Positions 31,426 to 57,645 of a DNA stretch of 64,000 nt are shown here, piece after piece. Location: the NCBI RefSeq assembly GCF_009496005.1, contig NZ_WIBF01000013.1:62001-126000 (forward strand). The letters are read 5' to 3'. The stretch comes from Tritonibacter litoralis. GTDB taxonomy: Bacteria > Pseudomonadota > Alphaproteobacteria > Rhodobacterales > Rhodobacteraceae. The position numbers and the translations under genes were made by a program. The notes beneath the pieces are model-generated. The model was not told the DNA's origin, ran no database searches, and was given only the letters and a program-made list of their open reading frames with translations. The first letter of the stretch is position 1, and every line of letters begins with the position of its first letter.

Positions 31426-31500
31426 GCCCGGGTAGCTCAGGGGTAGAGCAGTGGATTGAAAATCCTCGTGTCGGTGGTTCGATTCCGCCCCCGGGCACCA
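31426..31500 (+). tRNA. tRNA-Phe(GAA)
   Basis: GCCCGGG acceptor, D arm TAGCTCAGGGGTAGAGCA, anticodon loop TTGAAAA (anticodon GAA), T arm GGTGGTTCGATTCCGCCCC, acceptor CCGGGC-A-CCA encoded. A tyrosine recombinase gene begins 98 bp downstream, so its 3' end is the likely attachment site (attL) of the island. Confidence 0.97.
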
Positions 31501-31598
31501 TAATATATTGATTTCAATTATTATTTTTCTCCGTTGGTAGATTTCATCAGCGGTTCTAAAAGTTACACACAGTTATACACTCAATTTAAGTTCCTGAT

Positions 31599-32780
31599 TT
31601 GCCGAAAGATTCAAAAAACAAAATCCTCAAAATCAAACCCCTCCGCAAAGGCCTGTCGATCTATAAAACGGCCCGTAGTCCCTATTGGTATGTGCGGCTG
31701 AGAGACCCCATTGCTCGCGCCTATGTGGTGCGTTCAACCAAAGAGACCAGCCGGATTGAGGCGATTGATGCAGCGGGCGAGTTTGCCGACAGTTATCATA
31801 GCCAAGCCAACAGCGATCATGCCCGGAAGAAGTCCACCAGCTTTGAGCACTATGCCAAGAAGCTGATGGACCTTCAGAAGGGAGCGTCGAAGTGGTCCGA
31901 TGGGGACAATATGCTGCTGATGCGGGCCAATGATGGGCTGATTGTCTATTTTGGCAAATATGATGTGACCAAGATCAACACTGGTATGGTTCGCGATTAC
32001 CTGATCCATTTGGATGGCAATCGTCCCAAACGGTTGGCGGAATCGACCAAAGCGAAACATACGATCATCATGCGCAAGGTGCTGGCGCTGGCGGTGGAAG
32101 ATGGCGTGTTAAATGTGCTGCCGGTCATGCCGAAGCAAAAGACCGTTGATACGCCCCGGCATACGTTTACCGACAAAGAGTACAAGTTGTTTAAAGAGGT
32201 TGCGCAGAGATGTGCAAATCGCGGCGACAAGGTGCGCGGTGTCAGAGTGAAGCGGGAACATGTGATGATGTTCATGTTTTGCGTGCACTCCTTCCTGAGG
32301 CCGACAGAAGGAGAGCTGTTTGGCCTGAAGCACGGGGATATTCAGGTCAAAGGCGATCCGACGCATCTGGAGTTGAATGTGCGGGGCGGCAAAACCGGTG
32401 CCCGCGTCAGCGTGACGATGCCAATTGCGGTGCCTTTTTACACTGACCTCAAAGACCCGTTTAAGGGCATCCGCTATCCCGCTGATGAATACGTGTGGAT
32501 GCCTGAATACCCAAACCGTCGCACAGCGATCAATACGGCCCGGCGTATCTTCAACCACATCCTGAAGGAAGCAGGGCTTGCGGACGGGGATCGCAAACTG
32601 TCTCCTTATTCGCTACGCCACTATGCTATCCAGGCCCGGCTGCGGGAGTCCAAAGGTAAGGTGAACCTTCATACGTTGGCCAAAAATGCAGGCACTTCGG
32701 TGGATCAGCTAGAGCGGTTTTATCTGAAGAAGATGGCCCCCTCAAAAGAGCTGATTGAGAACCTTCAGATCGTCGGCTGA
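31599..32780 (+). CDS. tyrosine recombinase / integrase
   Basis: 393 residues. N-terminal Arm/SAM-like DNA-binding part, catalytic domain with R234 (SFLRPTEGEL), R340-H341 (SPYSLRHYAIQ) and nucleophile Y375 (LERFYLKKM). The family HxxR histidine is replaced by Tyr, a common variant. It starts at TTG 31599 without a good ribosome site; no in-frame ATG precedes the conserved part. Adjacent to tRNA-Phe, so it probably integrates the island there. Confidence 0.9.
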   Translation: MPKDSKNKILKIKPLRKGLSIYKTARSPYWYVRLRDPIARAYVVRSTKETSRIEAIDAAGEFADSYHSQANSDHARKKSTSFEHYAKKLMDLQKGASKWSDGDNMLLMRANDGLIVYFGKYDVTKINTGMVRDYLIHLDGNRPKRLAESTKAKHTIIMRKVLALAVEDGVLNVLPVMPKQKTVDTPRHTFTDKEYKLFKEVAQRCANRGDKVRGVRVKREHVMMFMFCVHSFLRPTEGELFGLKHGDIQVKGDPTHLELNVRGGKTGARVSVTMPIAVPFYTDLKDPFKGIRYPADEYVWMPEYPNRRTAINTARRIFNHILKEAGLADGDRKLSPYSLRHYAIQARLRESKGKVNLHTLAKNAGTSVDQLERFYLKKMAPSKELIENLQIVG

Positions 32781-32845
32781 CGGAGCGGGTTGTCTGCAAA
32801 GCGCGTCTTGGGGGAGGGCGCAAGGGACATCACAGGAGAAGCGAT

Positions 32846-33214
32846 ATGTCCCTTAGTAAAGAATTTGATCTGTCCGCCATTGCCAAACCCAAGTCCTTGT
32901 CGGCCAGCCATCTGCGCCGTCAGAAGTTCATAGCTGCGATTGAGAAGCAATTGGCAGCAGCCCGCGTAGGCGATGCGCTGCCAAAGGCGTCCAGTTGGGC
33001 ATGGCAGTCTGAAGCCGGAGAATGGTTCCTCTCCCCCCGGTATGGGCGAGCGGCGCTTGAGCTTGCGGATGGTATGGCAACAATCAAATGCGGTGACGCC
33101 AAGGGCGTTGTCCAATCCCTCCAGAAGCTCAAATCCTTGGCTCAAGATGGTCAGTTGGATGAGGTTTTGGAGGCGGCTGCTTTGGCGATCCGTAGTCGTT
33201 TTGCCAAGGCTTAA
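32846..33214 (+). CDS. small DUF6641-like protein
   Basis: 122 residues behind CAGGAGAAG. Basic N terminus (SASHLRRQKFIAAIEKQL), then WAWQSEAGEWFLSPRYGRAALELADG and an alpha-helical tail ending in AIRSRFAKA. The pattern resembles the DUF6641 family of uncharacterised proteins in phages and integrated elements. Possibly a nucleic-acid-related accessory protein of the polymerase element; this is inference. Confidence 0.6.
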   Translation: MSLSKEFDLSAIAKPKSLSASHLRRQKFIAAIEKQLAAARVGDALPKASSWAWQSEAGEWFLSPRYGRAALELADGMATIKCGDAKGVVQSLQKLKSLAQDGQLDEVLEAAALAIRSRFAKA

Positions 33215-33283
33215 AACAGGGGCCAGCGCTGTCATGGCGATGGCCACACTTGAACACATATACTCATTTGAAAGGTAATTATT

Positions 33284-33700
33284 ATGAATGACTTAGAAGT
33301 AATCCGTTTCCAACCATCGCGTGTCCATGGGTCTCGATCTGACAATCGGTTGGCTTTCCAATGGCTGGCGCGCAATGCTGGCAATCTCAAGGATAAGAAG
33401 GTGATGTTTGAAGGTACTGGGCGGAAACGAGGCCGCTCCATCCATTTTGCTCTCCTTCGGGGGATGACAGAGGCAGAGGTCCAAGCGCTCTATCAGCAAA
33501 AGAAAGCAAACAGCCCCAAAAACAGACTCTTCTTTTGGTCTTACCTGCCAACAGATCCTGATTTGCCCTTTCCAAGACTGATTGATGACTGTCCGGATAC
33601 GTTTGATCGGAACTACCTCGATTGCGTGCTTGGGGGTGTTGGAGAGGTCAAACTTTGGGAAGATATTTTGTTCCCAGCAAGTTTAGAGCTGGAGACTTAG
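33284..33700 (+). CDS. hypothetical protein, 138 residues
   Basis: Good start (AAAGG before ATG 33284). Soluble, with VIRFQPSRVHGSRSDNRLAF, GTGRKRGRSIHFALLRGMTE and NRLFFWSYLPTDPDLPFPRL; no known domain recognised. Follows the DUF6641-like gene by 69 bp in the same direction, so probably part of the same element module. Confidence 0.6.
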   Translation: MNDLEVIRFQPSRVHGSRSDNRLAFQWLARNAGNLKDKKVMFEGTGRKRGRSIHFALLRGMTEAEVQALYQQKKANSPKNRLFFWSYLPTDPDLPFPRLIDDCPDTFDRNYLDCVLGGVGEVKLWEDILFPASLELET

Positions 33701-33862
33701 GGCCCTCTAGGTCATCTCCGGAATTTAAACTCAGCCCGCCGGAACCCAACCGGGGCTTTAAATCTCTAGCTTTTGTGCGAAGCACAGTTCACGAAGTGAA
33801 CCCATTGGGTGTCTATAGGAAGATTATAATCAATCTTTATAACAGCTTATATTTGCTTGAGG

Positions 33863-33907
33863 CTCAATCACTTTGTGATTGAGTACCCCCTTCGGGGGTA
33901 TGTTTCT
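33863..33907 (+). terminator. double hairpin terminator-like structure
   Basis: 9-bp stem with TTT loop (33863-33883) directly followed by a 7-bp stem with TTC loop (33884-33900) and TGTTTCT. Lies 160 bases after the 138-residue protein gene. Confidence 0.5.
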
Positions 33908-34476
33908 GGCGGATAATCTTTTAGTGTTTTTTGGAATTTGGACATACTTCTCCTATCCGTTGAGGAGAAGCATGTGAGATCTGGTGATCTTACAAACCAT
34001 CTACACACGATTACCTGAAGGGTGCGGCTGGCGGTTATCCGGTCTCAGCCTACGTGCTGCTTACACGGCGGACCGATATGCGTGCGTCCTGTAGATGGCA
34101 ATTTGACACGCTCGGCGACGGCACTTCCCCGTCTCGTGATGACAATTGTTTGCTCTTGCTCTCTTTGGGGGCTTTCATCTTTCCCCCGCTTTCGCTGTCT
34201 CCTAACCCTACTATTCTATGACGTTATGTCTGCTGGCCGTTGTAACTTTGGCTCTGCACCGTCCGGTGGAAATTCCCTTCTGATTGCATAACGCTTCGGG
34301 CTGATTATGATTTTGGTTTGTATCGCGTTCCTGATACAAGAGAGTTGCGAGCTGTATTTGTATGTTTGTATATGTATAGTATATTGTTTTATATGGTTTA
34401 TTTATAGGTCGGTGCTTGGGGAGCTCTGGCGATGTCACATGTTTTATTTGAACTTTTTTGGCCCATTTAAGGATCA

Positions 34477-34530
34477 TAAAAATAGTAAAAGTTCTATTTG
34501 GGTGTAGAGCACAAACTTTTACTATTTTTA
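34477..34530. repeat. perfect 17-bp AT-rich inverted repeat upstream of polymerase gene
   Basis: Left arm 34477-34493 is the exact reverse complement of 34514-34530; the loop is 20 bases. It ends 74 bases before the polymerase ATG. It could be a protein-binding operator, a cruciform origin or an RNA hairpin in the leader. Confidence 0.85.
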
Positions 34531-34604
34531 ACACTCGGCATCCGCTTCAACAGGAACCCTGAAGCTGCGCTCAGCCCATTTTTTGAAGTCTTTTAGGACC
34601 ACCG

Positions 34605-37361
34605 ATGCCTTCATCCTCTCTCTTCTCCGCTACGCAATTTGGCAAGCCGAACGGTCGCAGATACAAAAAAGGACGGTATTTGGTCTTTGGCTTTGACACG
34701 GAGTATCAGCGCAGGCCACGGACCAATGCGGCAGGACAGGTCGAGATAGAAAATGAAGTGCTTTCCTATCAATTTAGCTGTCGTGTCGTCACTCCAGATA
34801 ATGCTGGGGAGGAACCGCATTGGTCTGGGATTATCTTGCCGGATGGGCCTTTGGTCAGCGACCGTCTGTCCCTTGAGGCCTTTGTCACACATGCTTTGGC
34901 GGAAGGGCTCAAAGCCTATCCAGATGTCAAAATGCCCGTTGATATCTATCTGGTGGCGCATTTTACCCGTGCGGATGTGCCTGCGTTTAGTGACTTCAAG
35001 GATGACGAGCGCCGGGGTGCGCTGAATCTCGACAACATTCGCAGCCTGTTTATGAATGTCAGCTCGGATATTGAGGTCTCTTTGCCCTGCGACGACGGCA
35101 AAGGACATGTGCGGATTGCAGTTAAGATCCGGGATACACTTGCATTGGCTCCTGCAGGTGCCAGAAGTCTTGCTCAGCTTGGTGATATACTTGGGTTTGA
35201 GAAGTTGTCTCTGTCAGATGACCCTGACAAAGATCTGCACTACGAAACGCATATGGCCGATTTTATGGCCGCTGATTGGGAGCGGTTCCGGGACTATGCG
35301 ATCCGGGATGCTGAGATCTGCGATCAATACACCACCCGATTGATCCGTCTCTACTTTGATCAGACTGGCACCTTCAAATTGCCTGTGACGCTGACCTCCA
35401 TTGGTGTCGACCTGATTCAAAACCACTGGAAAAAGCTTGGTCTTGACCCTGCATATGTGGTGGGCAAGGAGACTGTTGAGGAGCGGCGCTGGGATAAGAA
35501 ACGAGAGCGCTATGTGACGGAGACGAAAACAGTGTCTTTGTCGAAGCTTCACTGGAGTGAGGACTTCTTTACAGAATGTTATCACGGTGGGCGCAATGAG
35601 CAATTCTGGTTTGGTCCAGCACCCGAAGGTGTTTGGTATGACTATGATCTTTCCAGTGCTTACCCGTCGGCCATGTCGTTGATTGGGGAGGTGCATTGGG
35701 ACAGCATTCGCCCCATCACGCCCACTAAAGAACTAAAGAAAGGGACGTTTTTATCCGGAGATCTGGCCTTTGCCAATGTGAACTTTGAGTTCCCTGATGA
35801 TGTCCGCTTTCCCGTTTTGCCAGTGCGTACGGAAACGGGCTTGCTGTTTCCCCGCAAAGGCAACAGCACCACCCACATCAGCGAGATCAATTTGGCGCTC
35901 CAGTTGGGGTGTAAAATTGAACTGGTGGAGGGGCGATACATCGACAGTGATTATGTCTTCAGCCGCATCAGGGAACATGGGTATCCTATTCGTCCGTTCC
36001 TTGATTTTACCAAGCACTGCATCATTGAGCGTCAGAAACACCCCAAGAAGAATTTGAACAATCTCTTTTGGAAGGAGCTGGTCAATTCCACTTATGGAAA
36101 GACGGCGCAGGGGCTCAGGGAGCGCCGTGTGTACGATCTGAGATCTGCGCAGACCCAGCGTTTGGAGCCCAGTAAGATTACCAATCCTGTCTATGCGGCT
36201 TATATTACCGCTCTCTGCCGCGCGACGCTGGGCGAAATCATGAACGCGCTGCCGCGGAGTGTTGAGATCTTCAGCGTCACCACAGATGGCTTTCTTACAA
36301 CTGCAACGGATGCGCAGATGAGGAAGACGACCATTATAAACTTGGGTTGGGACTATCGATCTGCGCGCGGCATACTTGTTGGGGATACGCAGATCTATGA
36401 GACCAAGCACGTCATACGCCAACCGATTGGCTGGCGGACACGCGGGCAGGCGACTCTGAAACCTTCTCAGGTCTCGGACTTTGAAGGTGTCAATCTTGAG
36501 CCTCGGGAGGATGAACGGGTTGTCTTGGCCAAGGGGGGGATCAAACTTGATCGAACGTGGTCCAAGTCACAGCAAAATGATGAGATTGTGGAGCTGTTAT
36601 TAAACCGGAAGCCAACAGATACAATGGCGGTTGTGTTGGGGGCAGGCATTCGGGAGATGCACGAAAAGGGGATGGATTTTGTCGACAAGACAATGACCAA
36701 GCGTCTGTCGATGGAGTTTGACTGGAAACGCAGGCCGCATGCTGCTGGTGATGTTCCAGTGCAATTTGGCACCCAATCCGAAGTCAGTCATCTGGCGTTT
36801 TCCACCATACCTTGGGACAGTGTTGAGCAGTACAATACCGTTCGGGAGCTTTGGCGTTCCTATACCAAGGACGCCCCGCGCTGCCTCAAATCCTTTGAAG
36901 ACTATCAAAAATGGGCCACCTACTTTGAAAGCAAGCTGGCGGCACAAGGTCCGGCTGAGGCGTATTTGGCCAAGGAGGATGGCATCCTAAAGCGCATTCG
37001 CAGGGATCTGGTGATCGCTCAGAGGCTTCGCAAAGCTGGCACCCATGAGCTTAAACCAAGCGCTGTTGATCAGGATGTGCTTCCTGACGGCTTCAAACTG
37101 AAGGCAGAGACGTTCGCAAATATCCTCAACGACCGCTTTGGCATTCCCTGCGCCAAGACCGATGTGGACAATGCCCGGAAGAAGAAAGCCTTTGTAACCA
37201 AGCAAGTCCCCAACTGTGACCAGTCCGTTAAGATCTTGGAGGCGATCAAGAGGGACCTATTTCCTAAACTGGATATTGAACAATTCCTCACACCAAAGGC
37301 CACGTTTGATCTGAAGATCGTCGAAAGGGATATGGCAAAGCCTTTGCAAGAGGATCTGTGA
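34605..37361 (+). CDS. family-B DNA polymerase, piPolB-like
   Basis: 918 residues. Proofreading domain: Exo I FGFDTEYQ (D31/E33), Exo II VAHFTRADVPAF (D124), Exo III YAIRDAEICDQY (Y231/D235). Polymerase domain: motif A YDYDLSSAYPSAM (D346/D348), motif B K490-xxx-NSTYG (494-498), motif C FSVTTDGF with one acidic residue (D561) where YxDTD is usual, then R611-T-R-G614. Primer-independent polymerases of pipolins carry KTRG at the corresponding place, so this is a likely piPolB relative with Arg for Lys; a protein-primed phage-type PolB is the alternative. The C-terminal 200 residues are basic and unassigned. Within an integrase-bearing island at tRNA-Phe; a 17-bp inverted repeat lies just upstream. 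Confidence 0.82.
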   Translation: MPSSSLFSATQFGKPNGRRYKKGRYLVFGFDTEYQRRPRTNAAGQVEIENEVLSYQFSCRVVTPDNAGEEPHWSGIILPDGPLVSDRLSLEAFVTHALAEGLKAYPDVKMPVDIYLVAHFTRADVPAFSDFKDDERRGALNLDNIRSLFMNVSSDIEVSLPCDDGKGHVRIAVKIRDTLALAPAGARSLAQLGDILGFEKLSLSDDPDKDLHYETHMADFMAADWERFRDYAIRDAEICDQYTTRLIRLYFDQTGTFKLPVTLTSIGVDLIQNHWKKLGLDPAYVVGKETVEERRWDKKRERYVTETKTVSLSKLHWSEDFFTECYHGGRNEQFWFGPAPEGVWYDYDLSSAYPSAMSLIGEVHWDSIRPITPTKELKKGTFLSGDLAFANVNFEFPDDVRFPVLPVRTETGLLFPRKGNSTTHISEINLALQLGCKIELVEGRYIDSDYVFSRIREHGYPIRPFLDFTKHCIIERQKHPKKNLNNLFWKELVNSTYGKTAQGLRERRVYDLRSAQTQRLEPSKITNPVYAAYITALCRATLGEIMNALPRSVEIFSVTTDGFLTTATDAQMRKTTIINLGWDYRSARGILVGDTQIYETKHVIRQPIGWRTRGQATLKPSQVSDFEGVNLEPREDERVVLAKGGIKLDRTWSKSQQNDEIVELLLNRKPTDTMAVVLGAGIREMHEKGMDFVDKTMTKRLSMEFDWKRRPHAAGDVPVQFGTQSEVSHLAFSTIPWDSVEQYNTVRELWRSYTKDAPRCLKSFEDYQKWATYFESKLAAQGPAEAYLAKEDGILKRIRRDLVIAQRLRKAGTHELKPSAVDQDVLPDGFKLKAETFANILNDRFGIPCAKTDVDNARKKKAFVTKQVPNCDQSVKILEAIKRDLFPKLDIEQFLTPKATFDLKIVERDMAKPLQEDL

Positions 37362-37545: not shown

Positions 37546-38286
37546 CTATGTCGAGAGCGTTATCATCACCGGACGGTGGTCTGATCCCCAGAGCTCCGAT
37601 ACAGCCCCGCCAGTGGTGAGGGTCACGTCCCTAACATAGATTTGGTCCATCCTCAGTTGGAAACGGGGAAAGGTGATGCCATCGATTGCCGGCGTAAATC
37701 CACGTTCGGCGAACCAGGCATCGTTGGCGCTGCGCTCGCGCCACCCCCAATCCCGCCACGTATAGCCGAGCGGTGCGGCTAGTATCGGCGCGAGCCATGG
37801 TTCGGAGAAGCTATTGAAATCGCCTGCAACCACCATTGGTCCCTCAAGGGAAATCTGTTCGGCGGCAGCCTCAAGCTCTCGACGCCGTCGCATTGGTCCG
37901 CAACCAGCGCTCAGGTGCAAACAGAGCACTCGGAATCCGAGCGCCGGAAGACTGGCTGCAAGCGTGTCCAGAAACTCGACCCAGCCCATGCGCCGCGCAA
38001 GCCAGGACGCCGGGGCCTTGTTGATCTCTCCGTGGCGGACAACGCTGATGTCGGATAATGGGACTTGGGCAGCGATAGCTACATGGCAGAGCACGCCATC
38101 CTGAAGGTAGTCCCGGGCTTGGACAACGTGGCGGTAGCGACGTGCGACTGCTTCGAGGTGCCCCTCCGTCGCCTCGCACATGACAACCACATCGGGGCTC
38201 AGCGCATCCAGACAGCTCGTGATGCGGCCACTGTCGGAGTTCTCGCAGTAGGTATTCCAGAACAGCAGCCGCACCGTTTCGCTCAA
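37546..38286 (-). CDS. endonuclease/exonuclease/phosphatase (EEP) family protein
   Basis: 246 residues, no signal peptide. All EEP motifs are present: LLFWNTYCEN (metal-site Asn), VVMCEATE (catalytic Glu), LHLSAG, VVAGDFNSFSEP, GSDHRPVMI (Asp-His). Could cut DNA or act as a phosphodiesterase. ATG overlaps the stop of the upstream membrane protein gene (ATGA), so the two are made together; convergent with the polymerase gene. Confidence 0.85.
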   Translation of the reverse strand: MSETVRLLFWNTYCENSDSGRITSCLDALSPDVVVMCEATEGHLEAVARRYRHVVQARDYLQDGVLCHVAIAAQVPLSDISVVRHGEINKAPASWLARRMGWVEFLDTLAASLPALGFRVLCLHLSAGCGPMRRRRELEAAAEQISLEGPMVVAGDFNSFSEPWLAPILAAPLGYTWRDWGWRERSANDAWFAERGFTPAIDGITFPRFQLRMDQIYVRDVTLTTGGAVSELWGSDHRPVMITLST

Positions 38287-39686
38287 CTGCCGCCTCGTTT
38301 ACGGTCGTTTCGTTTTCGGCGCCGCTTGACTGCCCTTACGACCGTTTCCCAGACTGCGGACAGGATCGCTGCCAGAGCTTTCACGGCAAAATACAGTAGG
38401 ACCAGCGAAACGAAGTTCACAAACCATAGTGACAGGAACACCACCACACCGACGGAGATCAGCAGATCGAGGGACATCCAGCCGATAGGCCAGATATCCA
38501 TCTCATCGAGCTTGTCGCTTTCCTCGTCGCTGAGGCTGGGATTGTTTCGGTAGATCAAGCGCCCATCGATAGCCGCGCGCCGCAACCACAGCCATAGGCA
38601 GCTGAAAGTGATCGCCCCAATCATGAACAGTACGATAGGGGCCGCGTAAGTCTGAAGACTTAAGGTGTAATCGCTCAGATCGACAACATCGTTCATAGAT
38701 CTCAGAAATGTTGTGAAATCCTCGATACTGAGCTTGGTGAAGTCCTTCTGGAAGATCGCAATCGCACCGCCAAAGACCATATCGATGATAGTCTCATCTT
38801 CGGTCGAGCGCAGAAAGACATTTTGCAAGTGCATCGCGACAGCCATGGTCCCGGTGAAAATTGCCGCGAGGATCAGGTGATGGAAGAAGCTCTCGAAACG
38901 CTCGAAACCGCAGCGGCTGTCGTCGCTTCCCAGATCAGGAACCAGGATTAGGTCAAGCTCATGTCGCATGGTCTCAGAGAAGAAGGCGGAGAAAGAACAC
39001 AGAAAAATGAATGCACCGAATACAATGCCCATGCCGACGATTGCGATCAGAAAGTAGGCCGCGAAGCCGAAGATCGCGTTTGCGGTCGTACTGATGAGCG
39101 CGCCATCGAACGTTGCCGCAACGGACCAGTCGAACTCGTGCAGGGGATGGATGAACCCGACCGGATCTTGCAAATCGACGAAGCGTTTCTGGTGTTCGCT
39201 TGGCTCCATCCACAGCCACTCCAATACGACCGGCCAGAAATCGAACAACCCGATATAAAGTCCCGAGGAGACGGCGACGCCGAGGCCGATCAGCGCCCAA
39301 GGGCGTGCCATGTCTCGCCATTTCGCGATTACCAAGTCCGGATCTGCTGGCGAGAAGTCTTTTCGGCGCAGCATCCCCGAACTGACCAGTTCCCGCAGTA
39401 GCCGTTCGATTTCCCGGATGGCCAGCAGCAAATTGACCAGCGCAAGAGGTAGCAGAAGCAAACCTGTAATGGCCCAGTTTGGTGCCCAGACATAGCCAAC
39501 CTGTTTGCTATAGGTTGCCGCGACCGGAAAACCCGCCAACTTCTCGCCTGAAACATAACCGTTAAACTCCACATCGTGAATCTGCAGAGCAAATGATGCT
39601 GCAATTAGAAACAAGCCAGCAAGTAGGTTTAGTACCATTATTATCGTAGCATTCTTGCCAGCATAAATCCAGAATCTTAAAGCCAT
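38283..39686 (-). CDS. multi-pass membrane protein paired with EEP nuclease
   Basis: 467 residues, about eight membrane segments: N-terminal helices at 16-36 and 70-90, central helices near 130-155, 205-235 and 265-290, C-terminal ones near 350-375 and 405-450, with a charged tail KRRRKRNDRKR. A conserved-looking soluble section FGGAIAIFQKDFTKLSIEDF lies between helices. No family recognised. Coupled by overlap to the EEP gene, which suggests a membrane sensor or anchor plus nuclease. Confidence 0.75.
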   Translation of the reverse strand: MALRFWIYAGKNATIIMVLNLLAGLFLIAASFALQIHDVEFNGYVSGEKLAGFPVAATYSKQVGYVWAPNWAITGLLLLPLALVNLLLAIREIERLLRELVSSGMLRRKDFSPADPDLVIAKWRDMARPWALIGLGVAVSSGLYIGLFDFWPVVLEWLWMEPSEHQKRFVDLQDPVGFIHPLHEFDWSVAATFDGALISTTANAIFGFAAYFLIAIVGMGIVFGAFIFLCSFSAFFSETMRHELDLILVPDLGSDDSRCGFERFESFFHHLILAAIFTGTMAVAMHLQNVFLRSTEDETIIDMVFGGAIAIFQKDFTKLSIEDFTTFLRSMNDVVDLSDYTLSLQTYAAPIVLFMIGAITFSCLWLWLRRAAIDGRLIYRNNPSLSDEESDKLDEMDIWPIGWMSLDLLISVGVVVFLSLWFVNFVSLVLLYFAVKALAAILSAVWETVVRAVKRRRKRNDRKRGGS

Positions 39687-40240
39687 TTAGAAACTTACCT
39701 CTCCGAGGTTAATATATCAAACTATTAATTGAATTATTTCCCATGAATTAACATCCCTTGCTAGAGACCGAGTGTATTCCGAACCTCTGTAATTTACAAC
39801 GTATCGTTGCGATGCTTTAGGTCGTTTATAGCACAGAGAGCGATTCCGGCTCAGTGTTGCAAACGACTCCTGACACTCCCGAGAGGTCGTTGTCTACTAA
39901 GGCGTCCGATGCCTCCGCCACCCCTTGAGCCAGATCAGTTTCACCAACTAGATCACAGCGAAACCTTCATCGGGGTCTGGGCATGGGTGTGGGAGGGCTG
40001 TGACACCAGGTTAACGCTTACACTCATTCAGAACTTTCGCGCATAGGCGGTCGTCAAAAACTGTCGTTTCTGACCACGTGTTCTTGGGCCTTGATATTGC
40101 GGATTCTGCCGTGATCACAAACCGTTGCCAAAACTCCTCTCAGTTTTGGTAGGTTTTTGACACTCTCTGAGTTGGCGATGCAGTCATTCGCCGCGTCACC
40201 TCACTTTGGGAGGTTTGGGCTCTCTACGGGCATTCGCTGC
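39687..40240. other. intergenic region, no gene recognised
   Basis: About 550 bases upstream of the membrane protein gene and downstream of the serine recombinase. AT-rich near 39.7 kb (probable promoter of the membrane/nuclease pair). From 40219 the sequence is shared with 57236 onward. Short open frames here have no ribosome site or family support. Confidence 0.5.
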
Positions 40241-40514
40241 TTAATCTGAAAGTGTCCGCTTTGCTCCCTTCAAGCTGGCTGCATAGTTTTTGACCGTTTG
40301 TGGATGCCATTTGCCACCTTTGCGGGTTTTCACACCTCTCGCGTTCAGCAGCTTAGCTGTTCCTGAAAAGCTGCCAGCCTCAGCCAAAGCCGTCTCAAAC
40401 TCTTGGCTGATCGTTCCATAAAACTCCTGCTTTTCCTGCTGTCTGACCTTTGCAAGCCGCTGTGCGTTCCGCCCAAGGATCGTTCCACGCGCCTTGGCGG
40501 CTTGCAGAGCAGCT
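40219..40514. repeat. direct repeat copy 1 (serine recombinase 3' end)
   Basis: About 296 bases nearly identical to 57236-57532, with scattered single-base changes, in the same orientation. Covers the 3' part of the recombinase gene and about 22 bases behind its stop codon. Confidence 0.88.
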
Positions 40515-40897
40515 TTGGTTCTCTCAGAAATCTGTCTGCGTTCCTCTTCAGCGAAACACGCCAGCAGATGCAAAAAGAATGTTGAGACATTTGGATGTTC
40601 GCAGACGACCAGCTCAATCCCCTGATCAATGATGCCAGAGATGAACGAGACCTTCCGAGAAAACCTGTCGAGTTTTGGGATCAGCAGTTTGGATCGGGTC
40701 TTCTTGACGAGATTGATCGCTTTCCACAGTTCAACTCGGTCATTGCGCTTTCCTGATTGTACTTCGGTGAACTCCGCAATCACGTTGTCGTTTGGCTGAA
40801 GGAATTGCTCGACCATCGTGCGTTGCGCTTCCAGCCCGAGACCTGAGCGTCCTTGGCGTTCCGTTGAAACTCGAAAATAGACGACATATTCGACCAA
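40241..40897 (-). CDS. serine recombinase (resolvase/invertase family)
   Basis: 218 residues starting at TTG 40897 with a strong GGAGGG site. Catalytic serine S11 in YFRVSTERQG, SGKRNDR, IPKLDRFSR, LACFAEEERRQISERTKAAL, and a C-terminal helix-turn-helix (SFSGTAKLLNARGVKTRKGGKW). It could resolve, invert or integrate DNA. A decayed second copy lies 17 kb away in the same orientation. Confidence 0.92.
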   Translation of the reverse strand: MVEYVVYFRVSTERQGRSGLGLEAQRTMVEQFLQPNDNVIAEFTEVQSGKRNDRVELWKAINLVKKTRSKLLIPKLDRFSRKVSFISGIIDQGIELVVCEHPNVSTFFLHLLACFAEEERRQISERTKAALQAAKARGTILGRNAQRLAKVRQQEKQEFYGTISQEFETALAEAGSFSGTAKLLNARGVKTRKGGKWHPQTVKNYAASLKGAKRTLSD

Positions 40898-41530
40898 AAA
40901 ATCCCTCCGTAACCGACAAACGTTGGTTTGTCGTAGAAGGCTTCCGAAAGTTGGGAAAATGGATCAACGAAAGGCTTGAGTGATTGAGGGAAGGAATTTC
41001 AGAATGGAGGGGGAGAGGCGCTGTTGCCGCGTATCTACTTTGAACTCTTGTCTTATTAGATGTCTGTTATGCTCAGCTAGCGCCCGTGGCAACGTTGCAG
41101 CATCAGAGCGTTCGATGGAATACCCTTGCGGTATAAACGCGGAAATAGCCGTCCTTTTCTTCAAGTGTGGCTTCATGCTAGCTCTTGACAGTAAGTGAGA
41201 TTGTCAAGAGCTATTTATAAGCCTCAAGTCTAAAATCTGCTTTAAGTAAAGTGGCATTATGCTATTTAACTTGCTGTGAAGCACCCAGTGTGTTCAAATT
41301 AAACACTAGAACCATTGCGCTTGATTGGGTGCATTTGTAGTTCGTATGAGCCACCGTTTGATATATTAGAAAATTTTTCGCAATGCAAAGTGTGATTGGA
41401 AAGACCGAAGTGGGTGTTACAATTTCGTGTTAGTTTTCGGAGTCGTAGACACGCTCCCGTTTCCGATATGTTTACGTTTGCGGGCGGTGGTTGGTGTGAT
41501 TCTTGCAACTTTCAAAGACGGTACGATGCG
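40898..41530. other. AT-rich upstream region of the P-loop ATPase gene
   Basis: About 630 bases with no supported gene. Contains an inverted repeat at 41179-41213 and AT-rich sequence (41210-41400) suited to a promoter. The ATPase frame is open from 41396. Confidence 0.5.
41179..41213. repeat. 12-bp inverted repeat (operator or hairpin)
   Basis: TAGCTCTTGACA at 41179-41190 is the exact reverse complement of 41202-41213 with 11 bases between. TTTATAA follows. It lies about 320 bases before the ATPase start. Confidence 0.7.
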
Positions 41531-43201
41531 ATGTCAAAGCGAACCCCCGCGAAGAAGAAACGCATGGCGCAAGGTGATAAGCTTTCGTTGAAGAACATGT
41601 ATCTAGGCGAAGTAGACACTACCATAGAACTCGATATCAGCGGGAGAGAGGCCCGAAGCGATTTTTACAACTCTTACTACGTCCGTAGCGATGCAGAGGT
41701 TGCTTCGTTCTTAGACGGTCGGAAATGCTTTGTTTACGGTCAAAAAGGTGCGGGAAAAACGGCGTTCCTTCGTTATATAGGTGAGCGCCTTAGACGCGAT
41801 ACCCAAATGGGTAGGGATTTTGATCTCTATCTTTTTTCTAAGGACTTCCCAAAAGCCATCTACGAGGATTTAACGGAGTTCACTGCAAAAAAGCGAAAAA
41901 TTGACCCAGATGATTTCCAGCACCGCCTAAACCCATTTCGCGATATCGACTATGAGGACCTTTGGACATTTATCCTCCTCCAAAAACTTAGTGAACAGGT
42001 CAAGGAAAACGGAGGCCTGAAAGTTGTTCACGATGTTCACTTCAAGCGTTTTTTGCAGCTCTTGGACCTTGTTGAGTCTGGATCGGTTTTTGACCGATTT
42101 GCTCGCCTTTTGCCAAAAGTACGTAAAGGTTCATTGTCTTTAGCCGAGAGTCCATCTGTGGTAGTTGATCTTGAGTTCGATGGATCGTCCAGCGATGTGG
42201 CCAAGTTTTCTGACTATGTTTCGGAACTTCGGGATGAATACAGTAAGCTTACCTTCTCTGCAGGTTCTTACCATTTGATGTTTGACGAAATCGATCCTAG
42301 AGTTGGCTCTGGTAAAGCATTTGACCTTGATTGCATTCTCATCCGAGACCTTATTCTTACCATCTACAATCTTAATCGCAGCCATTCGTCTTCGGTAAGG
42401 CGCGTTTTCTTCAGCGCAGCCATTCGCTCAGAAATACTCCGTGAAGTCAATCGGTTGGGTAAGGAGGTGCATAAATACCTGGAAACTCTAGGTATACACA
42501 TGAATTGGGGGGAGTTAGGTCGACGAGACGTAGACCATCCTCTGATAAAAATGGTTTGCAAGAAGATTATCCATTCTGAGAAAAAACTAGGCATTTATGG
42601 ACACCAAGACGACGAGAACTACCGAGAAATATGGAAGAAATACTTTCAGAAAACTCAAGGAGAAGTTCTGTCACCCAACGAAATTTTGCGCCTAACTTGG
42701 ATGAAACCTAGAGATGTTGTTCGCTACCTTAATGCCTGCCGCGACTTGGATGGGGATGCTAAGGTGTTTGACAAAAGTTTGCTGGACAGATCCCTCGGAC
42801 CTTACAGCTTTGGCAGTTGGCGCGATATTCAGGCACAGTTGTCCGGTTCGGTTGGTGCAGAGGTCGTATCAGCCCTTGAATCCGTTTTCTCTCGCTTTCA
42901 TCGGAAATTCAACATAGACGAACTGCAGCATCGCATAGACAGTATCGCCGCTATGAGTGAGAAAGGTCAGGCGCTCAAGGAGTTATTTAAGCCATTGGAT
43001 GTTCTGGAACTGCTCTATTTTCATGGTATTGTGGGTGTGCCCTCTGGTGGATCGAGAGCAGATTTTTATTTCGAAGGCCATACCTCTCCCGACTTTTTTG
43101 AAGGTATTCAGCTGCACGATGGTTTGGCCGCAAAATTTAAGCTTAAAAAGATTCGTAAGTCTGGGGAACATACTAGGGATCTGTTTGAATCCGGTGAATG
43201 A
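41531..43201 (+). CDS. P-loop ATPase, Sll1717-like
   Basis: 556 residues from ATG 41531; an earlier in-frame ATG at 41468 is possible because the ribosome site is weak. Walker A GQKGAGKT (70-77), Walker B-like HLMFDEID, then SAAIRSEILREVNR as a sensor-like region and a long helical C-terminal half. The pattern resembles the Sll1717-type stand-alone STAND/KAP-like ATPases found in islands, often linked with defence. Low GC compared with the core genes. No nuclease or effector domain was recognised in it. Confidence 0.72.
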   Translation: MSKRTPAKKKRMAQGDKLSLKNMYLGEVDTTIELDISGREARSDFYNSYYVRSDAEVASFLDGRKCFVYGQKGAGKTAFLRYIGERLRRDTQMGRDFDLYLFSKDFPKAIYEDLTEFTAKKRKIDPDDFQHRLNPFRDIDYEDLWTFILLQKLSEQVKENGGLKVVHDVHFKRFLQLLDLVESGSVFDRFARLLPKVRKGSLSLAESPSVVVDLEFDGSSSDVAKFSDYVSELRDEYSKLTFSAGSYHLMFDEIDPRVGSGKAFDLDCILIRDLILTIYNLNRSHSSSVRRVFFSAAIRSEILREVNRLGKEVHKYLETLGIHMNWGELGRRDVDHPLIKMVCKKIIHSEKKLGIYGHQDDENYREIWKKYFQKTQGEVLSPNEILRLTWMKPRDVVRYLNACRDLDGDAKVFDKSLLDRSLGPYSFGSWRDIQAQLSGSVGAEVVSALESVFSRFHRKFNIDELQHRIDSIAAMSEKGQALKELFKPLDVLELLYFHGIVGVPSGGSRADFYFEGHTSPDFFEGIQLHDGLAAKFKLKKIRKSGEHTRDLFESGE

Positions 43202-43267
43202 AAATAACGAAATTTTATCCTGCTGCAATGTTAGGAAACTATTTTGTTATGAAAAAAGTAGAGTGAT

Positions 43268-43355
43268 GCTTCAGTGCTTCAGTGCTTCAGTGCTTCAGTG
43301 CTTCAGTGCTTCAGTGCTTCAGTGCTTCAGTGCTTCAGTGCTTCAGTGTTTCAGT
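43268..43355. repeat. octamer tandem repeat, 11 units of GCTTCAGT
   Basis: Ten perfect copies of the 8-bp unit followed by one with a single change (GTTTCAGT). Lies 66 bases behind the ATPase stop. Unit length and perfection are typical of slipped-strand (phase-variable) repeats; here it is between genes. Confidence 0.95.
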
Positions 43356-43620: not shown

Positions 43621-44244
43621 TTATTCTATGGTGGGCACGACTTTAATGTCCGTCAGGCTGAACAGGAATGTTCGGTCTTCGAGGTCTGGCGATGAGCCAA
43701 ACACTGCGGACCATGTGGTGCGGATACATTGGTTCTCAAGCATATTGCCGTATTTGAACTTTCCAGAAAACATCACGGGGTCGTTGCGTTTCATGGTCAA
43801 GATGGCAGGCCATGCATTTGGGGCAACCTCGGCTCGGACGCTGTTTCCAAAGCCGACGAAGAGTTCCACATAGATTTTGTCTCCTGCATCGGTGGCGTCT
43901 GCATCTTCAAATAACCCAACCCAATTGTGGTGCGGCGCTAAACCATGAAACACTTGGTCCCCGCACAGGGTTCCGTTGGCGTTGATGAAGGCTGTTGCTG
44001 CCGCTGCATCGTTGGCGGCGGCATCTGCTTCGGCGATAGCGCTGCCGATAATGTCCAAAAACACATGTTGGTCCGCCGGAGCATAGGCAGCCACGTATTT
44101 TTCGAATTTCTCACCTTGAACATCCGAGGTGAAAAGCCAGTAGAGGATGTAGCCGATACCCAACAAAATGATTGGTTTTTTCAACCTCCGAATAGGGCCT
44201 TTGCGTTTCTTACCTTGGTTTGCGGTCTCTGTTGTTTGTGTCAT
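43621..44244 (-). CDS. hypothetical single-span membrane protein
   Basis: 207 residues from ATG 44244; a TTG at 44265 is in frame. Basic N terminus (GKKRKGPIRRLKKP), one helix at about 25-40 (IILLGIGYILYWLF), then a soluble extracytoplasmic part with GTLCGDQVFHGLAPHHNWVG and ENQCIRTTW. No family recognised. Ends in front of the bidirectional terminator. Confidence 0.6.
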   Translation of the reverse strand: MTQTTETANQGKKRKGPIRRLKKPIILLGIGYILYWLFTSDVQGEKFEKYVAAYAPADQHVFLDIIGSAIAEADAAANDAAAATAFINANGTLCGDQVFHGLAPHHNWVGLFEDADATDAGDKIYVELFVGFGNSVRAEVAPNAWPAILTMKRNDPVMFSGKFKYGNMLENQCIRTTWSAVFGSSPDLEDRTFLFSLTDIKVVPTIE

Positions 44245-44318
44245 ATCTGTTTCTCTGTGCTTCAAATGATGTTGGCGATTGAAAACGATTTGATGTCACC
44301 CAGCGGTGCGTCGGGTGT

Positions 44319-45890
44319 TCAACGTTCACTGGCGACTTGATTGCGGGTGTCTGTGAGGGCAGCTTGGCAAGCTGGATGCGTGACAACGGGACTTGTATCC
44401 CGGCCATTCGCCGGAAGAGCTTCCATATGTAATGCAGATTTATTCAGCTCTTGCTGTGCGCCTTGCCAATCTATTGATTGCTCAAAAGCGTCTGTGGCTG
44501 CGCTCAAGATATCGGTGAGTGCGGTTCTGTTTTGGGGGCTTTCGAGAAACCAAGAGCCTTGCGCGTGCCAGTCTTGATTGTCGGCCTGCGACCAAAGCGA
44601 GAGATAGGTCATTGCGAAGGGTTGTGAGAGGGCTGCATATCCCCCGGTTTTGTTGAAAGCTGTCAGATTGCTGTTTTCAAGCCTATGTTGTTCCACATTG
44701 AACGTGTTGGCTGCGACATGGAATGTTACACGGCACCTGCTTTGCTGGGTCAAATCTACCGGCTTGCCGAGGTTCATGACCTCGTGAATGCCCCCACATT
44801 CTGAGATTGGCTTTTGGGACCTAACTGCTGTTCCTTGAGGTTCTCGACAGGCTGTTTGTTCCGTCAGGTGGAATGACACCGCCGTGAAATCAAGGGCGTT
44901 TGAGATACCGTTCAGCCTGTCGATCTCTTTGGGTGACAGCGGATACACGGCAACTGTGTGCTTGCCATAGACTGCGATATTTTTATCGGGTTGCTGCGTC
45001 TCTGTGTTGAAATAGGCAAGGTCACGAAATCGCTGCCGCTCACCCCTGTATTGCAATTCTGAACCAAAAGGTTCGGCCCAAGCTTCCTGATCTTTGCAAA
45101 GGGCTTCTAAGGTGACGGTGCCGACTGGCTGCCACTGATTGTTGACATGCCTTAGTTTGAGTTGGCTCGCTGGGATGCCGATTTGCGACCAAAGACTTGG
45201 CATATTGCCCTTGGTGTTGAAAGCATCGCTACCAAGGGGATCTGTTGAAATGAATTGGTTTATCAATTTGGCGTTTCTCAGGCAGGTCCTGTAAATCGCC
45301 TGCTCGAGTGTTTGATCAGCGCTGTCGTATTGGTCGGGTTCAGGGACAGCAGCCACATTGTCTTCCCCACATCCATCACATTCTTCGCCTTCACCCCAGA
45401 TAAAGGCGCTGGCTGATCCATCGATGAAGCGACCAAGGAAGATTTGCACCTCTGAAGAGGAGGACAGATCTATCTGATGTCCCATATTGTGTTCCATCAG
45501 CCCCAGAGCTTGCCTGAGCGCATGGGCCGTATTGCGGCCCCACAGGCCATCTAACGTGCTGCCGTAGAAGTTATAGGCTGCCAGCTCGCGTTGGACCTGA
45601 ATCCGATCGGCTGTGCTGAGCTGTTTGAACCCTGTTTCCAATATCGTCAGGGACCGGCTTGATACCTCCGCTTGCGTGGCTGCGAAGGTGGGTGCAGGGC
45701 CTGTAAGGGCGATGGAAGATAAGGCTATGGCTGTCTCTGCCTTCGGTAGTGACTTGTACAGGACGAGCGAGCTTTCAGGGGGCAGCGACCTAGAATGGCG
45801 ATCATTGGAAGAAACTTCTGCTAGTGCGATGACGTCCGCGCTGCAAAATCTACAATCAGACAACTCTGTCTTGAATGAGCATGGGCGCAC
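44319..45890 (-). CDS. hypothetical secreted protein with peptidoglycan-binding-like segment
   Basis: Up to 523 residues. A helix-rich motif QVQRELAAYNFYGSTLDGLW, GRNTAHALRQAL resembles a peptidoglycan-binding repeat. A hydrophobic stretch ending PTFAATQA (about residues 52-72 of the longest frame) looks like a signal peptide, but no ATG/GTG/TTG sits just before it; the only upstream starts are GTG 45890 and a TTG shortly after. The 5' end also overlaps an ankyrin gene on the other strand. The true start is therefore unclear, and a frameshift near the 5' end is possible. Confidence 0.5.
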   Translation of the reverse strand: MRPCSFKTELSDCRFCSADVIALAEVSSNDRHSRSLPPESSLVLYKSLPKAETAIALSSIALTGPAPTFAATQAEVSSRSLTILETGFKQLSTADRIQVQRELAAYNFYGSTLDGLWGRNTAHALRQALGLMEHNMGHQIDLSSSSEVQIFLGRFIDGSASAFIWGEGEECDGCGEDNVAAVPEPDQYDSADQTLEQAIYRTCLRNAKLINQFISTDPLGSDAFNTKGNMPSLWSQIGIPASQLKLRHVNNQWQPVGTVTLEALCKDQEAWAEPFGSELQYRGERQRFRDLAYFNTETQQPDKNIAVYGKHTVAVYPLSPKEIDRLNGISNALDFTAVSFHLTEQTACREPQGTAVRSQKPISECGGIHEVMNLGKPVDLTQQSRCRVTFHVAANTFNVEQHRLENSNLTAFNKTGGYAALSQPFAMTYLSLWSQADNQDWHAQGSWFLESPQNRTALTDILSAATDAFEQSIDWQGAQQELNKSALHMEALPANGRDTSPVVTHPACQAALTDTRNQVASER

Positions 45891-52349: not shown

Positions 52350-53102
52350 TTATCTCCGCACCCAGTCGGCCCAGTCTTTGGGGTAGGTTTTCGAGTTCGC
52401 GAGTGGCGTGTCGTCGATGCCGAACATCGCGACGATGGCGGCGGCTTCGAAATTCCAATAGCCGACGTAGGTGTTGTTGGTGTTGTTGTGATTGGAGTAA
52501 AACGGATTGGTCGAACTGCGCATTTCTTTGAGCCAGCCTTTGTCAAACTGCATCAAGGCGACTTGCCGGTCGAAATCTGTGGCCTCTGGCGCGCAGGCGG
52601 CCAGCGCGTCTTCATAGGCCTCCGGCCAGACAAGCGTGTCCACGGGATCACGGCCGTCGCCTCGGCCGAGGTGTGCAATGAAAACCTCCCACAAAGCGTC
52701 GCGTTCAGGCCAGAAATCGAGCGCATCGATGAGCGGCTTTGCCTCTTCCGGCGTGAGTTTGCAGAGCACGGCCAAAGCTAAATACCGAGTGCGAAAATCC
52801 CAGCCGCCACTTTCTTCATCAAATGCTCTTCGAGGGGCAAGCCCACAAGCCCTTACATATATAGGGTAATATTCGACTAATAAGGATCGTGCATAACTGC
52901 AGCACTTTGATATTTCCAAGCCAGAGCTGTAAGCTGCCGAAGCCAGGTTGAAACCGAAAGTCTCCATAAAAGACCTGTCTGCAACCTGTTCATCATAGGT
53001 ATTGCCAGCTCCTTTCAAATCTTCTGCAATTTCGTGGAGGAAATCCGCCCTGTCGCTCAAGTAAAAAGTCCAATAGTCAGGGTTCTTCAATTTATCTCTC
53101 AT
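52350..53102 (-). CDS. PoNi-type immunity protein
   Basis: 250 residues from ATG 53102, overlapping the effector stop (ATGA). N-terminal MRDKLKNPDYWTFYLSDRAD and C-terminal NTYVGYWNFEAAAIVAMFGI-DDTPL with TYPKDWADW match the DUF1910/DUF1911 pair now known as the PoNe immunity domain. It should bind and neutralise the DNase encoded just upstream and protect siblings. Confidence 0.88.
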   Translation of the reverse strand: MRDKLKNPDYWTFYLSDRADFLHEIAEDLKGAGNTYDEQVADRSFMETFGFNLASAAYSSGLEISKCCSYARSLLVEYYPIYVRACGLAPRRAFDEESGGWDFRTRYLALAVLCKLTPEEAKPLIDALDFWPERDALWEVFIAHLGRGDGRDPVDTLVWPEAYEDALAACAPEATDFDRQVALMQFDKGWLKEMRSSTNPFYSNHNNTNNTYVGYWNFEAAAIVAMFGIDDTPLANSKTYPKDWADWVRR

Positions 53103-54619: not shown

Positions 54620-54628
54620 AAATGGTCC

Positions 54629-55015
54629 CTAAAAAAGCGATTGATCAAGGCTGGTTTCGTCCTGGTCTGAAAAGAAAGACCGAAGTACTTCAGGCGCCAT
54701 TGCCGACCTTGACAAAGGTTGTGTCTCCGAATGGCCCGCCAAGGCAGGCACCGACAACCCTGTAACCGCCAAAGCTTTCAGGGCCTCGTTCGTGATCTGT
54801 GTGAGAGATGGGTCGTCGATACGCGGCGACACGCTGTGGTTCGAAATCTCAGCAATGCGGGAAATTCGTTTCGTGGGCGACAGGAATATTTGCCGCAAAG
54901 AATTGGCTGGTTCGATCCCTGCCTGAGCAAAGAACGCTTGCCTCAAACTGTCCCTTTGGGAGCGGCTTTGATCGGCCGCGTTATCCCACGAACCAGATGC
55001 TATTTTCAATGCCAT
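54629..55015 (-). CDS. small protein between vgrG and effector, candidate adaptor
   Basis: 128 residues. ATG 55015 follows GAGGTGA; it ends 9 bp before the effector start. Polar and Ser/Ala-rich (WDNAADQSRSQRDSLRQAFF, SLRQIFLSPTKRISRIAE) with no membrane helix. Not recognisable as DUF4123, EagR or DUF2169. Its place suggests an effector-loading role, but this is inference. Confidence 0.6.
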   Translation of the reverse strand: MALKIASGSWDNAADQSRSQRDSLRQAFFAQAGIEPANSLRQIFLSPTKRISRIAEISNHSVSPRIDDPSLTQITNEALKALAVTGLSVPALAGHSETQPLSRSAMAPEVLRSFFSDQDETSLDQSLF

Positions 55016-55023
55016 AAATCACC

Positions 55024-57108: not shown

Positions 57109-57235
57109 AATATGAGTCCAACAAACAGTTAATGCCGTAGGGGGTAGCAAGCCGAACGACTGCACGCAAGACGTGTATTAAACGGTGTTGCAGCAAAGCA
57201 GCCCTAAGAACACAACGCAGCATTAGTCAAAATGA

Positions 57236-57532
57236 GCTCTCTACAGTCATTCGCTGCTTAATCTGCAAGTGCCCGCTTTGCTCCCTTCAAGCTGTCTGCA
57301 TAGTTTTTGACCGTTTGTGGATGCCATTTGCCACCTTTGCGGGTTTTCATACCTCTCACGTTCAGCAGCTTAGCCGTTCCTGAAAAACTACCAGCCTCAG
57401 CCAAAGCCGCCTCCAACTCTTGGCAGATCGTTCCATAAAACTCCTGCTTTTCCTGCTGTCTGACCTTTGCAAGCCGCTGTGCGTTCCGCCCAAGGATCGT
57501 TCCACGCGCCTTGGCGGCTTGCAGGGCGGCTT
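57236..57532 (-). pseudogene. serine recombinase, 3' fragment (direct repeat copy 2)
   Basis: Nearly identical to 40219-40514, coding for the C-terminal part of the recombinase (helix-turn-helix region). The upstream catalytic half is missing; an IS-like end follows directly at 57533. With copy 1 it flanks the ATPase and T6SS genes. Confidence 0.88.
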
Positions 57533-57645
57533 AGCTTTGTTGCACAAATCTGGGTTTGACCGGGCTTCCCCTTTGAAATGCGTTTTGTTTCGATCATCAC
57601 TGGGCGCACCCAAGCCTTCCAAAAAAGGCAAAACACTCATTCTTA
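57533..57645. mobile_element. insertion-sequence end remnant (IS5/IS903-like)
   Basis: AGCTTTGTTGCACAAATC at the junction resembles the terminal repeat GGCTTTGTTG...AAATC of IS903-type elements. No transposase frame remains in the roughly 110 bases before the TonB receptor stop. It likely cut the recombinase copy. Confidence 0.45.

Follow-up and report, generated by a model that had tools for sequence, protein, structure and literature searches.

Pipolins, as described in PMC7385651 and PMC9710591, are elements marked by a primer-independent family B DNA polymerase (piPolB) and often found at tRNA genes together with tyrosine recombinases. PMC9710591 lists Alphaproteobacteria among their hosts and gives, as the ExplorePipolin criterion for a piPolB, a hidden Markov model match at E 1e-50 or better. 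Here we analyze a 64,000-nucleotide stretch of Tritonibacter litoralis contig NZ_WIBF01000013.1 (hereafter the window), in which a tRNA-Phe gene is followed by a tyrosine recombinase and a 918-residue family B DNA polymerase (PolB). We propose, with a probability of about 0.86, that this locus is a roseobacter-lineage pipolin that has inserted at the tRNA-Phe 3' end, and that its polymerase, judging from its kin, would be self-priming. The kind of element is already known, because pipolins have been described and Alphaproteobacteria are listed as hosts in the two papers. A first-pass annotation had called the locus pipolin-like, taking as established the association of pipolins with tRNA genes and tyrosine recombinases, in agreement with both sources.

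Polymerase clade and signature motifs

The window PolB belongs to the piPolB clade. In a quick IQ-TREE analysis of 70 rows (17 of 73 loci were left out as short, broken or truncated), it falls within a 59-row group (SH-aLRT 99) that holds E. coli, Staphylococcus, Fusobacterium and actinobacterial polymerases. References were the E. coli polymerases L116 and L117 and enzymes of Staphylococcus and Fusobacterium plasmids; the outgroups were phi29, PRD1, Rhodococcus phage P19, the thaumarchaeal rows and, as the one RNA-primed enzyme, E. coli Pol II. All of these outgroups, together with L095, lie outside the 59-row group. A nested 45-row group (SH-aLRT 99) joins the window enzyme with those of E. 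coli, its nearest rows being L036 and L040. A more careful tree of 54 rows, from which 16 of the 70 were dropped (non-piPolB outgroups, one duplicate and long branches), unites the window with seven Roseobacteraceae at 100/99, and the 44-row half that contains the window also includes the E. coli enzymes (99/92). The phylogenetic check proposed with the first-pass annotation thus groups the protein with piPolBs, apart from Pol II and from the protein-primed rows used. The locus carries a piPolB gene by clade membership, and primer-free synthesis would be expected from that kinship. PMC6563490 describes casposon protein-primed polymerases, and the thaumarchaeal rows match that description.

The polymerase gene is intact by several measures. 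Its reading frame is uninterrupted by stops, Pfam DNA_pol_B_2 covers residues 323-511 (E 1e-7), and multiple alignments recovered both the exonuclease motifs (ExoI F30-D-T-E33, the ExoII region H119..D124, ExoIII Y231..D235) and the polymerase motifs (A D346-Y-D-L..Y-P354, B K490..G503, C T559-T-D-G562). This bears out the earlier claim of complete exonuclease motifs, motifs A and B, and R611-T-R-G614 after motif C, and agrees with the intact 3'-5' exonuclease and polymerase motifs expected of a piPolB. Motif C lacks its first aspartate (TTDG), as in 66 of 87 aligned rows; piPolBs without this residue are still active according to PMC7544198. Thaumarchaeal rows (ATDS) lack it too, so the feature is not exclusive to piPolB. 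The gene is under purifying selection, because dN/dS is 0.045-0.113 across six pairs of relatives and 0.082 between the window and L036, a pair whose synonymous sites are near saturation (pS 0.74). An AlphaFold2 model of the protein reached a pLDDT of 89.9 and a pTM of 0.85. A sequence search of solved structures gave no relevant match.

A KTRG tetrad after motif C is regarded as a mark of piPolB. Across the 87 aligned rows we read RTRG 45 times, KTRG 11, KQRG 6, TTRG 5, KKRG 3, and RTRL and KTRV twice each, with a gap in three rows and ten further readings once each. Within the 59-row piPolB group, RTRG accounts for 36 rows, KTRG for 7 and TTRG for 5; KTRM (the same protein twice), RTRL and KTRV occur twice each, and RTRA, RARG, KTRL, ATRG and RTRM once. 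The tetrad therefore opens with arginine in 41 rows, with lysine in 12, with threonine in 5 and with alanine in one. The first-pass annotation had noted arginine in place of the motif lysine. The arginine is there, but it is normal across a large clade, and with 36 of 59 group members reading RTRG we reject the idea that Arg611 is peculiar to the window enzyme. As for the companion claim that KTRG marks piPolBs, lysine does not define the 59-row group. The tetrad is not diagnostic of piPolB, because KTRG occurs in the phage P19 polymerase and KQRG or KKRG in thaumarchaeal rows; KTRG is also found in the archaeal row L100, so the tetrad cannot by itself identify a piPolB.

On the 54-row tree the arginine maps as one change. 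A single origin is not established, because that branch is supported at only 66/41 and because L091, L094 and L099, which were left out, also carry arginine. It seems unlikely, but conceivable, that the RTRG clade is a biochemically distinct piPolB branch that initiates DNA differently from the E. coli type, some members perhaps lacking unaided priming. Such a difference might lie, for instance, in where synthesis starts, in which nucleotide is preferred, or in help from a partner, the DUF6641-like protein described below being one candidate. A literature search for KTRG with DNA polymerase returned no match; the founding pipolin paper was outside its reach and could already mention arginine. 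With arginine exceeding lysine 41 to 12 in the 59 sampled rows, a lysine-based model of self-priming would miss most of the sampled group. In the cited literature, the priming-capable replicative polymerases of this family that are named all come from pipolins.

Relatives, attachment site and gene content

Among 195 relatives, 2 gave a match to the polymerase; a single query did so in 2 of 385 class genomes and a profile in 4 of 398 phylum genomes, each count including the host's own genome. The other relative (G062) retains no more than a C-terminal stretch (45%) containing a stop, and one of the phylum matches is a C-terminal part only. A genome-contig scan with a six-row alignment, which relies on two short motifs and favors sequences retaining them, returned 152 stretches, 74 of which encode relatives in 72 loci (L036-L107). 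Searching plasmids and phages by tblastn gave no polymerase match above 60% identity. On plasmids the best matches came from Staphylococcus epidermidis pSE-12228-03 (26% across 79% of the query) and from Fusobacterium plasmids, and phage P19 was the sole phage match (28% over 36% of the query). Two viral scans found relatives in 0 of 8 and 1 of 62 stretches; on these scans and the lone phage match we reject a viral element. A blastn search of E. coli with a Psychromonas polymerase gene led nowhere; the E. coli enzymes were then reached through the relative L111, with matches in 299 of 5426 complete genomes, 285 of them over at least 80% of the query.

Only the C-terminal part of the polymerase is retained in L002, L035 (G062) and L113 (G714). 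On the Pseudosulfitobacter plasmid NZ_CP087043.1 (L029 10493-19061), an integrase accompanies a piPolB-like gene split by an IS66 insertion, with MobC and a relaxase after it; 30 Pseudosulfitobacter plasmid records match the polymerase, and the gene layout comes from one of them. The 7.2-kb Helicobacter plasmid pNHP21005_5 (L120) encodes a helix-turn-helix (HTH) gene, a small gene and a PolB-domain protein, ordered as in E. coli pipolins. Loci L042, L052 and L062, filed under Flavobacteriaceae, SUP05 and Nocardioides, are close relatives at 45-64% identity and reflect either misbinned contigs or wide transfer.

The integration site is shared with relatives. RNase G and YacG precede tRNA-Phe in L037, L039, L040, L041, L044, L050 and L051, just as they do in the window, and describing the host as Roseobacter-type rests on relatives sharing this chromosomal site. 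The last 47 bases of tRNA-Phe (31454-31500) are repeated exactly as the right attachment (att) site in L039 and L040. Both att ends, all at tRNA-Phe, are present in L040 (Roseobacter sp. MED193, 12.0 kb), L050 (14.1 kb), L048 (16.2 kb, polymerase in opposite orientation) and L039 (19.3 kb). Other relatives use other tRNA genes with repeats of 45-46 bp, namely L043 (Asn), L066 (Lys) and L068 (Arg), and several further tRNAs tested among relatives gave no usable repeat. Elements may stack at tRNA-Phe, because an apparent second integrase, seen by eye without a profile search, lies directly past the right att in L039 and L050.

A paired motif, TTAYRCAC-NN-TTAYRCAC, marks the left end. Across 1,796,038 bases it is confined to left ends, those of the window and of eight relatives (two extra matches are copies of window DNA), starting 63-64 nt past the tRNA, with degenerate pairs at the same place in L038 and L048. 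In four of five right ends examined a single motif copy stands 56-57 nt ahead of the att core; L050 is the one without. The pairs are probably arm-type sites of the integrase, because their spacing from the tRNA and att core suits such sites. We also take TTAYRCAC to resemble DnaA boxes, which would make a DnaA-box reading possible.

Four genes recur as a set in relatives: the integrase, the DUF6641-like gene, the piPolB gene and the serine recombinase (gene-sharing counts come from tblastn of window proteins against 70 polymerase loci). The integrase, present as expected of an integrated pipolin, has all catalytic positions (R, K, R-H and Y) and matches PHROG 216 (E 2e-8) and, above cut-off, Pfam Phage_int_SAM_5 (E 3.6e-5); its Phage_integrase match (E 1.9e-5, 24.9 bits) is under the curated cut-off of 27.1. 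It has homologues in 18 loci, at 62-76% identity in ten and 23-38% in eight. The 122-aa gene is found in 17 loci; of 17 members of its family 13 match DUF6641, a match that the window's own protein lacks. That it is a directionality factor is our guess from its position after the integrase, and stays one because a fold search found no match at E 0.001; a literature search on DUF6641 found no papers. The serine recombinase occurs in 17 loci, at 75-83% in ten, 50-53% in six and 26% in pSE-12228-03. Of the other proteins, the 523-aa one is found in three loci, the 214-aa one in two, the 138-aa one in one, and the ATPase, Exo_endo_phos and membrane proteins in none.

Features of the element and its surroundings, in window coordinates
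Feature	Position	Strand	Basis or remark
tRNA-Phe (gaa) gene, left attachment site	31426..31500	+	ARAGORN
Paired motif TTAYRCAC-NN-TTAYRCAC, probable arm-type integrase sites	31563..31580	+	63 and 73 nt past tRNA
Tyrosine recombinase (integrase), 393 aa, TTG start	31599..32780	+	ORF, Pfam, PHROG, catalytic residues
Conserved pipolin gene, 122 aa, DUF6641-like, phrog_31551	32846..33214	+	PHROG and tblastn against loci
138-aa protein, probable cargo	33284..33700	+	homologue in 1/70 loci (L041, 48%)
piPolB-type DNA polymerase, 918 aa	34605..37361	+	Pfam, alignments, trees, model
Polymerase motif A	35640-35666	+	multiple alignment
Polymerase motif B	36072-36113	+	multiple alignment
Polymerase motif C	36279-36290	+	multiple alignment
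Polymerase RTRG tetrad	36435-36446	+	multiple alignment
Endonuclease/exonuclease/phosphatase-family protein, cargo	37546..38286	-	Pfam Exo_endo_phos E 1e-11; 0/70 loci
Putative membrane protein, 467 aa, cargo	38283..39686	-	weak RcgA match, 22.8 bits (cut-off 325); 0/70 loci
Serine recombinase (resolvase/invertase family), conserved backbone gene	40241..40897	-	Pfam Resolvase E 6.7e-26
P-loop ATPase, Sll1717 family, cargo	41396..43201	+	NCBIfam NF047389 E 2.1e-58; phrog_13260 E 8.7e-26
214-aa protein, function unknown	43621..44265	-	L039, L040 at 41-44%
523-aa protein, weak peptidoglycan-binding match	44319..45890	-	L039, L040, L051 at 42-51%
Serine recombinase gene fragment (3' part)	57233..57552	-	93% copy of 40216-40534

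The tRNA, the recombinase 98 bp behind it, the two small genes and the polymerase all lie where the first-pass annotation had placed them. Its span of 31426-37361 is right at the start and too short at the end: the element reaches at least the serine recombinase at 40897, and probably extends to 45890, the 523-aa protein being the final segment homologous to named pipolins. Between the ATPase and the 214-aa gene, an 8-base unit, TGCTTCAG, forms a tandem array of about eleven copies (43267-43350). Further on, positions 52350-57165 encode a VgrG (55024-57165), a 506-aa protein without a Pfam match and a PoNi-type immunity protein, which together probably form an effector and immunity module of type VI secretion within the same island. 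The serine recombinase fragment, together with the VgrG and its PoNi-type immunity gene, indicates a composite island, and the fragment is a sign of rearrangement downstream.

The left att site is present in the window, and no right site was found in this genome. Genome-wide, a 21-base pattern with up to three mismatches hits two places, tRNA-Phe itself and C53:173986. We rejected the latter as the right end: it sits 174 kb into a different contig, beside TniB/TniQ/rve-type genes and without the arm motif. There (L015 7862-20000), a 49-bp tRNA-Phe fragment sits between those genes and a type I restriction-modification system; the set is Tn7-like by gene content, and its first gene has no Pfam match. 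Genus relatives did not define an empty site, as flanks downstream of tRNA-Phe differ between genomes and the 50 kb past the tRNA gives just scattered matches within the genus. The right end was either lost or falls within an assembly gap; accordingly, the copy could be trapped or could span the gap.

Proposed mechanism and competing explanations

We suggest that the integrase would recombine the tRNA-derived att sites (a 47-bp core with arm-type sites within the ends), allowing insertion and excision as a circle. The piPolB would copy the element, starting synthesis unaided and displacing strands as pipolin polymerases are reported to do, and the serine recombinase may resolve multimers of the circle. 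Some observations weigh against this reading of the locus as a pipolin. The 24-bp att core occurs in the window only in the tRNA itself, and the other 17.9 kb of its contig has no copy; the polymerase lacks the motif lysine; and the 59-row split comes from a quick analysis whose long branches drew a warning from the program. The PDB fold nearest to the PolB model is phi29 DNA polymerase (E 1.4e-14, TM-score by target 0.65, 13% identity), its BFVD neighbors are protein-primed viral polymerases (His1 virus, tectiviruses), and its PHROG matches are phage polymerases. The fold and PHROG libraries are not known to contain a piPolB, and the predicted likeness agrees with the relationship already known between piPolB and protein-primed enzymes without separating the two. 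The nearest folds might suggest a protein-primed replicon or tectivirus-type prophage using a terminal protein, as might KTRG in P19, the sole phage match. We consider this highly improbable given the tree position, a length of 918 aa against 553-585 for PRD1, phi29 and P19, and viral collections holding 0 and 1 related loci. Neither Pfam (20 window proteins) nor PHROGs (16) recognized a terminal-protein or capsid family, although a highly divergent terminal protein could escape profiles; the VgrG we read as a secretion-system protein and not as a phage part. The pipolin-like reading is thus supported: the polymerase does not cluster with the protein-primed rows used, and the proteins scanned show no recognized terminal-protein or capsid module, either of which would have spoken against it.

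A more serious alternative, which we hold possible at less than even odds, is that the locus is an immobile remnant, its polymerase and integrase intact but its right end lost and the segment absorbed into a composite island. The contig yielded no right end, GTTATACAC has a single exact occurrence after 31400 on C5, and the serine recombinase fragment, the VgrG and PoNi genes downstream and the little synteny conserved in the genus all suit such a history; against it, the backbone genes are intact, and in an assembly of 54 contigs the right end could simply be missing. The polymerase might also be kept chiefly for DNA damage tolerance or host defense instead of copying the element. PMC9710591 describes the biological role as unclear and brings up damage tolerance, and many pipolins (L116 and L117 among them) carry cargo such as restriction genes. 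We find this quite unlikely: the recurrent link with an integrase, att sites and a serine recombinase, and the occurrence on small plasmids, fit element replication better, and PADLOC returned a single weak match among 10 proteins, to the ATPase only (E 0.007).

Comparison with described elements

Casposon and phage protein-primed polymerases share the overall fold and PolB motifs with the window enzyme but lie outside the 59-row group. The plasmid pSE-12228-03 (L027) resembles the window in that a piPolB-group polymerase adjoins a serine recombinase; it differs in being a free circular plasmid with a relaxase, no integrase listed and KTRG. The E. coli pipolins L116 and L117 (PMC7385651) have a polymerase of the same clade, a tyrosine recombinase, a nearby tRNA gene and variable cargo, in the same order of integrase, small gene(s) and PolB. 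They differ in tetrad (KTRG against RTRG), polymerase length (866 against 918 aa) and integration site (tRNA-Leu against tRNA-Phe), give no serine recombinase match, and have integrases too distant for tblastn with that of the window.

Closest are ten pipolins of the roseobacter lineage (L036-L041, L044, L048, L050 and L051). Four of them have both att ends, whereas the window's right end was not found, and most of their cargo is different. All ten share with the window the integrase (62-76%), the 122-aa gene and an RTRG polymerase; nine share the serine recombinase (all but L044) and eight the paired arm motif. This set offers natural variants, both-ended elements in named marine strains, and a defined system of att and arm sites in which to study excision and replication.

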